Source of the DNA: Gelidibacter gilvus
GTDB taxonomy: Bacteria; Bacteroidota; Bacteroidia; Flavobacteriales; Flavobacteriaceae
Assembly (NCBI RefSeq): GCF_004115975.1
Contig: NZ_SDDZ01000001.1
Coordinates: forward strand, 372,001 to 436,000
Length of the DNA stretch: 64,000 nucleotides
Direction of reading: 5' to 3'
The notes under the pieces were generated by a model. That model was not told where the DNA came from and did no database searches. It saw only the letters and a program-made list of their open reading frames with translations. The translations under genes were made by a program, and so were the position numbers. Positions 247-8,640 of this stretch are shown in pieces. How positions within the stretch are numbered: the stretch's first letter is position 1; every line of letters begins with the position of its first letter.

Positions 247-489
247 ATCAGTTTTTGATTTATAGAACACAGACCTGCCCGTCCGTACAGGCGGGTGGCT
301 CGGATTTCTTATGACAATCATTTATTTTGAACATTTATCAGTGGCCATCTGCTCAATCTGCGTCCTCAGCATTCCATCATTAGAACACAGACCTGCCCGT
401 CCGTACAGGCGGGTGACGCGGATTTCTTATGATAGTCACTGATTTTTAAGCGTTTTTTAAAAATCTGAAAAGTTCGTTTGACAGAACTT

Positions 490-523
490 AAACCTCTCGG
501 ATATTCAAAACCTGAGAGGTTTT
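490..523. terminator. Terminator-like hairpin inside repeat unit two
   Basis: AAACCTCTCGG at 490-500 pairs with CCTGAGAGGTTT at 511-522 (one G-T pair) and is followed by a T run. The same hairpin recurs at 782-818 in unit four, and a relative is found at 59541-59588, so it is a dispersed element as well as a possible terminator. Confidence 0.5.
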
Positions 524-781
524 TTAGTCTAAATCAGTGGCCATCTGCTCAATCTGCGTGCTCAGCGTTCCATCATTAGAACACAGACCTGCCCGTCCGT
601 ACAGGCGGGTGACTCGGATTTCTAATGATAATCATTGATTTTGAACATTTATCAGTGGCCATCTGCTCAATCTGCGTTCTCAGCGTTCCATCATTAGAAC
701 ACAGATGACGCGGATTTCTTATGATAGTCACTGATTTTAAAGCTTTTTTTAAAAAGCTGAAAAGTTCGTTTGACAGAACTT

Positions 782-818
782 AAACCTCTCAGATATTCAA
801 AACCTGAGAGGTTTTTTT
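782..818. terminator. Terminator-like hairpin inside repeat unit four
   Basis: AAACCTCTCAG at 782-792 is an exact inverted repeat of CTGAGAGGTTT at 804-814, followed by TTTT. It is the perfect form of the hairpin at 490-523; the stem position that differs (A against G) keeps pairing through a G-T wobble. Confidence 0.5.
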
Positions 819-1213
819 AATCTAAATCATTGGCCATCTGCTCAATCTGCGTCCTCAGCGTTCCATAATCTTAACAGATGACTTGGATTTCTTATGTTAA
901 TCATTGATTTTGAACATTTATCAGTGGCCATCTGCTCAATCTGCGTCCTCAGCGTTCCATCATTAGAACACAGACCTGCCCGTCCGTACAGGCGGGTGAC
1001 GCGGATTTCTTATGATAATCATTGATTTTGAACATTTAATAGTGGCCATCTGCTCAATCTGCGTCCTCAACATTCCATCATTAGAACACAGACCTGCCCG
1101 TCCGTACAGGCGGGTGACGCGGATTTCTTATGATAATCATTGATTTTGAACATTTATCAGTGGCCATCTGCTCAATCTGCGTCATCAGTGTTCCATCCTA
1201 AAAATTTAGGAAT

Positions 1214-8330: not shown

Positions 8331-8640
8331 TTCACTTTTCAAGCATTCAACTTCAATTTCATTTTCATGACATGCTTCTCCCTAATTAGAAGCGTATCAC
8401 ATTTAGGTAATTTAGTTAATGATTTTTAATTGACTTTTCTAGCATTTCAACTTCAATTTCAACTTCAATTTCATTTTCATGACACGCTTCTCCCTAATTA
8501 CAAGCGTATCACATTTAGGTAATTTAGTTAATGATTTTTAATTGACTTTTCAAGCATTTCAACTTCAATTTCAACTTCAATTTCATTTCCATGACGCGCT
8601 TCTCCCTAATTAACACAAGCTTATCACATTTAGGTAATTA
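8331..8640. repeat. Three tandem repeats of 99-112 bp between divergent genes
   Basis: Copies lie at 8331-8429, 8430-8541 and 8542-8640. Each reads TTNACTTTTC-AGCATT, then CTTCAATTTCA words, ATGAC-NGCTTCTCCCTAATT, then AAGCGTATCACATTTAGGTA. Copies two and three hold an additional CTTCAATTTCAA. They fill most of the gap between gltX and the DUF4175 gene, which are divergently transcribed. No long open frame runs through them. The rest of the gap (8238-8330 and 8641-8727) holds the gltX promoter and A+T-rich sequence with short GGTTCAA iterations. Confidence 0.9.

Follow-up and report, generated by a model that had tools for sequence, protein, structure and literature searches.

A 22-bp imperfect palindrome at one point of older repeats in Gelidibacter gilvus, with filled and empty sites within and between species

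Bacterial genomes commonly contain very short palindromic repeats, but clean pairs of filled and empty sites that show how they move are seldom available. The locus described here raises the question of how a 22-bp sequence came to be present in some units of a tandem array and absent from others. The array lies in a stretch of 64,000 nucleotides of the Gelidibacter gilvus genome (contig NZ_SDDZ01000001.1, positions 372,001 to 436,000; hereafter the window), where seven head-to-tail units on the plus strand occupy positions 262-1195 between an upstream ORF (1-246) and a tRNA-Cys gene on the minus strand (1247-1318), which forms part of the right anchor for orthologous loci. A scan for known RNAs in positions 1-2000 of the window found the tRNA alone. 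Five of the seven units carry an identical 22-mer, CCTGCCCGTCCGTACAGGCGGG, at one shared point. These are the short-form units U1 (262-376), U3 (576-690), U6 (963-1077) and U7 (1081-1195), with exact plus-strand copies at 274-295, 588-609, 975-996 and 1093-1114, respectively, and U2 (380-572), a long form that contains a second hairpin insert and has its exact plus-strand copy at 392-413. The palindrome is absent from U4 (694-865), also a long form, which reads ACAGA|TGACGCGG with nothing at the junction (705|706), and from the short-form U5 (867-959), which reads ACAGA|TGACTTGG with nothing at 878|879. Thus, the pattern of five filled and two exactly empty units noticed in the preliminary description was confirmed.

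The inserted sequence has 17 G or C among its 22 bases in a window of 36% G+C, and was absent, at up to 3 mismatches, from all 100 shuffles of the window. The preliminary description had presented it as a G+C-rich palindrome of 22 bp. Its length and composition stand; the palindrome is only an imperfect one, nested pairing placing C7 opposite A16 and T3 opposite G20. The preferred DNA fold is predicted to be a bulged stem, CCCG-(bulged T)-CC / GG-CGGG, with 6 pairs, a loop of five and an energy of -5.3 kcal/mol, leaving the outer CCTG (CAGG in the complement) unpaired outside it. Since CCTG lies outside the stem and the 22-mer is not a clean palindrome, the sequence has an orientation. The fold is weak in the array version (z -1.64 and -0.97 for the two strands) and in the common version (z -1.98 and -1.35). 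No match to the perfect palindrome CCTGCCTGCCGGCAGGCAGG was found in the window, even with 3 mismatches allowed, and no clear compensatory changes were seen at three pairings among 37 distinct 22-mers (up to 4 mismatches), a sample biased to near-identical copies. A scan for transcription terminators returned 5 minus-strand stems at the palindrome copies as opposed to 0.8 in shuffles. This role was rejected: each copy provides a 6-pair minus-strand stem followed by CTGTGTTCTA, with no proper T run.

Comparison of the units gave a first indication of relative ages. With the palindrome left out, the nearest relative of U4 is U2, the two showing 7 differences in 171 aligned columns and both having the long insert; nevertheless, U2 is filled and U4 is empty. 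The left end of U5 is the most diverged among the units. Among the five filled units, 19 of 93 unit columns are variable, and the five palindromes are identical. This identity is only mildly unusual, since 3 of the 72 windows of 22 columns elsewhere in the unit are invariant as well. Together, the different states of the closely related U2 and U4 and the identical copies in varying units suggest that the palindrome is younger than the units.

The host unit has inverted ends, the left end reading TTAGAACACAGA-TGACGCGGATT and the right end, when read on the complementary strand, TGGAACGCTGA-GGACGCAGATT. Searching the genome for the end pattern GAACRCNGANRACGCNGATT at up to 2 mismatches gave 34 matches, 8 in the array and 26 outside, as compared to 2 for the reversed control. 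The 93-193 bp unit therefore resembles a MITE in having terminal inverted repeats and dispersed copies of its ends, the ends having been matched alone. Similar repeats elsewhere in the genome consist of ~9-bp words (CACGGATTA CACGGATTT ...), and wherever two words are visible the palindrome separates the first from the second. Arrays of such word repeats free of the palindrome also exist, for example at C42:137617-137963 and C5:41613-41980. At C14:9692-10069 of the same genome, four host-type ends are spaced by 115-125 bp and their junctions are empty.

Confinement of the 22-mer to this array had been considered, in the preliminary description, as what would favour simple unit duplication and one deletion. 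The genome contains 21 copies at up to 3 mismatches, however, 16 of them outside the array, the reversed control pattern giving 0. Fifteen of 17 loci in this genome lie outside predicted ORFs (at least 70 aa). As in REPs, a short palindrome able to form a stem-loop is found in several intergenic copies; their number is low for a REP. Read by eye, each of the 16 dispersed copies is immediately preceded by a word of the CRCNRA kind (CGCTGA, CACGAA, CACGGA), which is of the GAACGCTGA type in six (L011, L012, L015, L018, L019, L020) and of the CACGAA type in ten. Exceptions at the junction are limited to L009, where the word is one base off, L017, which is shifted by one base, and L019, which has no visible second word. 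Two dispersed copies, L011 and L018, lie at the same spot in the orientation opposite to that of the other 14. The loop, TCCGTA in 5/5 array copies, is TCCGTT in 10 of the 16 dispersed copies and TCCGTA in just one (L011). Four loci (L006, L007, L013 and L021) have about 40 bp of flank in common and must therefore have spread as composites. For the genus, identity at period 9 across the junction is 0.420, as compared to 0.341 with re-paired flanks, and 15 of 2000 permutations are as high; among the 8 lags tested, lag 6 stands out too (19/2000). Two related palindromes with perfect arms were also seen in this genome: CCTGCCCGTACTTTCGGGCAGG near the usual junction (L215, C37:311342) and CCTGCCTGCCGACAGGCAGG further inside a host repeat of the same kind (L216, C38:361520).

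Relatives of the array were sought in the other species. The glnS-tRNA region was located in 9/9 genus genomes, and the ~1.5 kb preceding it could be read in G. gilvus (G000) and seven others, the contig of G002 ending early. In G004, the closest genome (90% over the query), the locus consists of one unit with an empty left end, while G006 has two units, both with empty left ends. The left end is empty in G008 too, where a palindrome is found in the right end, at the mirror position and in the same orientation towards the end word. No palindrome occurs in the part read at this locus in G001, G003, G005 and G007. The empty left ends of G004, G006 and G008 make it most likely that the left end was empty in the ancestor; comparison of these sequences most likely makes the gain in G000 recent and that in G008 a separate event at the other end. 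Two of the 16 dispersed loci (L012 and L018), chosen before their state in relatives was known, were traced as well. Two neighbouring sites lie beside L012. At site A, G008 carries the palindrome and G000 and G004 are empty; at site B, the palindrome is present in G000 and absent from G008, a missing flank alters the site in G004, and a decayed copy occupies it in G006. One or two flank bases differ between the filled and empty states of these sites, so that exactness is imperfect there, and the decayed copy in G006 together with the empty site in G008 requires two gains or one loss at site B. The L018 palindrome is common to G000, G004 and G008, which makes some of the copies old.

At up to 2 mismatches, the 22-mer was detected in 10 of 118 genomes: 9/9 of the genus, 0/62 other genomes of the family and 1/47 of the order. 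This last genome, G071, contains 8 near copies, each with 1-2 mismatches; very short contigs carry some of these. Scanning genome_contigs for exact matches yielded 111 stretches with the 22-mer; judging by the titles of the 80 that are listed with one, 75 are from Bacteroidota, 4 from Planctomycetota and 1 from an uncultured bacterium. Some are Gelidibacter stretches with the same flanks as the genus genomes (e.g., L103 and L075). Spread by viruses is unsupported, viral_contigs containing 0 exact matches to the 22-mer, and window positions 860-1200 had no match among plasmids. The flanks of 102 sites in other lineages were grouped into 69 clusters, which with 23 clusters from the genus makes 92. 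In the other lineages, a purine precedes the palindrome in 61/69 clusters, and T occupies the third position downstream of it in 44/69. Hosts there include hairpin repeats such as AAGCTGAA|CTTGTTTCAGCTT in Salegentibacter. Short-period hosts, with at least 70% identity at lag 8-10, account for 5/69 clusters as compared to 0.9 expected; the 69 clusters as a group give no period-9 signal. In G001 and G. salicanalis the host is a group II intron, the palindrome overlapping the end of the D1-D4 match. Two neighbouring D1-D4 copies are present in L077 (G001:C8; see also L118), each with a 22-mer, one of which has its last base changed, and other palindromes, CCTGCCCGCCGGCAGGCGGG and CTTCGACAAGCTCAGG, lie between them.

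Empty partners were then looked for by joining the flanks (12+12, up to 4 mismatches). Uninterrupted joined flanks were found for 25/69 clusters of other lineages, one of which, L171, was the filled site itself, leaving 24/69 at most as compared to 3, 2 and 2 in controls with re-paired flanks; a few of the 24 matches are unrelated DNA, as in the control, and the sample searched, ~1.46 million bases from 310 loci, is biased, much of it lying near palindromes. Partners matching at 24/24 bases were obtained for L099 in L169 (both Salegentibacter tibetensis) and for L163 in L182. Within the genus the same test gave 11/23 against 4, 7 and 6 in controls, a weak result because the flanks are alike. 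The inverted-repeat score of the flanks averages 4.00 over the 92 clusters and 3.69 when flanks are re-paired, a value of 4.00 being reached in 9 of 2000 permutations: the excess is small and real. Palindromes sit in the middle of an inverted repeat at L105, L123 and L125. Targeting of hairpin loops was discarded as a general rule, just 3/92 clusters scoring at least 8.

Thus, the 22-mer is interspersed and lies at one point of older repeats, and the same or nearly the same site, compared within and between species, occurs both filled and empty with no target duplication. The precise gain of a small palindromic element in an older repeat, as originally envisaged for the array, is borne out by the dispersed copies, the empty orthologues in sister species and the paralogous empty sites. 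Since one sequence offers such pairs, with a constant junction, inside a single genome, among sister species and across distant lineages, the spread of a 22-mer devoid of genes becomes directly testable.

Could the palindrome itself be immobile? A composite made of the end word, the palindrome and the inner words might have arisen once and spread as an ordinary repeat, ectopic gene conversion then swapping the two states. Such a history would accommodate the match of roughly 75-88% between parent copies over ~70 bp, the longer flanks shared by several copies and the loop TCCGTA common to the array copies. It is nonetheless unlikely given that the palindrome faces either way with respect to the end word (L011 and L018 versus the other 14), resides at opposite unit ends in G000 and G008, and has unrelated repeats as hosts in other lineages; moreover, the outer parent sequence extends for just ~10 bp before unrelated DNA begins, offering little for conversion to act upon. 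A different possibility is that all units were once filled and that U4 and U5 were emptied by hairpin-driven slippage, an idea already raised in the preliminary description. Palindromes are prone to deletion and U5 is a diverged unit, both of which would suit such losses. We find this very unlikely, as the empty orthologous left ends in G004, G006 and G008 would demand up to three further losses and no direct repeat surrounds the palindrome (A|CCTG...CGGG|T), making exact empty sites an improbable product of slippage.

The remaining alternative, which overlaps with the reading that we favour, is that a host RAYT (TnpA-REP) or IS200-like Y1 enzyme moves the 22-mer. The lack of target duplication and the predicted bulged hairpin would fit single-strand chemistry, four Y1 transposase genes (L052-L055) are present in the genome, and Y1 matches were obtained in 13 of the 16 further genomes searched (60 matches). 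By their motifs, two of the four genes most resemble subclass 2.6 and the other two subclass 1.2 of PMC6006769, with no exact fit. The hairpins beside these genes, AGACCTGACAGGTTTT...CTGTCAGGTCT, AGCCCTGAAAGGGCG and GCTCCTACGGAGC, nevertheless differ from the 22-mer, which at up to 4 mismatches is found at 0/34 Y1 loci in 17 genomes (4/4 of those in G. gilvus plus 30 of the 60 matches in the 16 genomes); no Y1 (RAYT) gene examined was flanked by the same palindrome in the manner of REPs. Genomes G005, G007 and G071 contain near copies, 8 of them in G071, and yielded no Y1_Tnp match at E 0.001. Finally, a search of the 6 nt preceding the hairpin on its 5' side, in both strands, encountered GTRG in 0/23 genus and 0/69 other clusters (0/92 overall), so that the GTAG/GTGG foot of REPs is missing. 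The RAYT acting in trans put forward in the preliminary description thus finds no backing, as nothing points to one, and we regard a mover of this type as doubtful. That no RAYT partner is visible hints at another possible route, single-strand or recombinational. Two minor observations concern the Y1 loci: a related palindrome, CCTGCCTGTCCGGCAGGCAGG, lies near the Y1 gene of L309, and the two 1.2-like genes of G. gilvus have GCCCTGAAAGGGC and GCTCCTACGGAGC palindromes beside them. Subclass 1.2 generally lacks typical IS200 terminal structures, according to PMC6006769.

Our preferred interpretation is that the 22-mer is probably a REP-like, oriented and non-autonomous element, gained in an older unit with inverted ends and then copied locally. 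The array copies are probably not the outcome of five separate insertions, the simplest account being one insertion followed by copying between units, as suggested by the loop TCCGTA, present in all five and in just 1/16 dispersed copies. One copy with this loop would have entered the G000 lineage after its split from the nearest sister, in the left inverted end of the intergenic unit next to tRNA-Cys, at the boundary between the first two 9-bp words. The unit may already have been a tandem array at that time or may have become one afterwards. Unequal crossing-over or gene conversion would then have spread the palindrome to some units, U4 and U5 staying empty. Movement itself could be due to a trans-acting enzyme with a folded single strand as substrate, by analogy with IS200/IS605 and REP elements. 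More tentatively, it is possible, if on the whole improbable, that these sequences represent a phylum-wide family of selfish 22-bp palindromes that enter a fixed position in other intergenic repeats and are moved by undescribed machinery other than RAYT.

How does the 22-mer compare with known systems? IS1397 and IS621 insert into REP sequences and encode a transposase. They resemble the 22-mer in having a fixed point of another palindromic repeat as target and differ from it in that the 22-mer is 22 bp with no gene; for the same reason it is unlike IS200/IS605 elements, which encode TnpA. With REPs and REPINs it shares being short, GC-rich, imperfect, oriented and mostly intergenic, occurring in several copies and lacking an enzyme of its own; REPs, too, can form tandem arrays, as mentioned in PMC3116915. 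A GTAG or GTGG foot plays a role in REPs (PMC8266576). In contrast, the 22-mer has neither foot nor a Y1 gene beside it among the loci inspected, enters other repeats at a fixed point and is found as the same 22 bases in distant lineages. CGTC-tagged palindromes, present in Bacteroidetes as well (PMC3733652), are likewise short palindromic repeats, but CGTC occurs within 6 nt of the 22-mer foot in only 2/23 genus and 0/69 other clusters, and the CGTC in the array belongs to the host unit, being present in empty units too. The atypical hairpins of TnpA-Y1 subclass 2.6 have genomic copies in Bacteroidetes, as PMC6006769 indicates, and the second insert of U2 and U4 looks alike; the 22-mer differs from them in sequence and is not beside any Y1 gene inspected. 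GC clusters of yeast mitochondria are also short GC-rich palindromes in AT-rich DNA, with filled and empty sites between strains and a mover that is not known, and a putative target duplication is reported for them in PMC4478555, whereas none is seen for the 22-mer. Thus, the REP-like kind is already known; the open-licence literature that we searched, including searches with the literal sequence, contained no description of this palindrome family or of its fixed junction.

The second insert of U2 and U4 is about 78 bp long (approximate spans 444-530 and 737-823) and contains another hairpin, AAACCTCTC...GAGAGGTTT at 490-522 in U2 and one of the same kind at 782-814 in U4, both resembling hairpins beside 2.6-like Y1 genes of the genus. 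The orthologue of this insert in G006 (AAACCTCTCAGGTTTTCAAAACCTGAGAGGTTT) is close to the hairpin beside a Y1 gene of G001 (L292). Other short-period, word-like repeats surround genes at L056-L068: four of the GxxExxY family and nine of the 23S IVP four-helix family, the latter being the loci inspected among 12 matches. By eye, the repeats on the other side of these genes are often inverted. We speculate that the host units of the array may be gene-less relatives of such GxxExxY and 23S IVP elements. The window includes a further tandem repeat at 8346-8639, with a period of 112, 2.6 copies and 95% matches.
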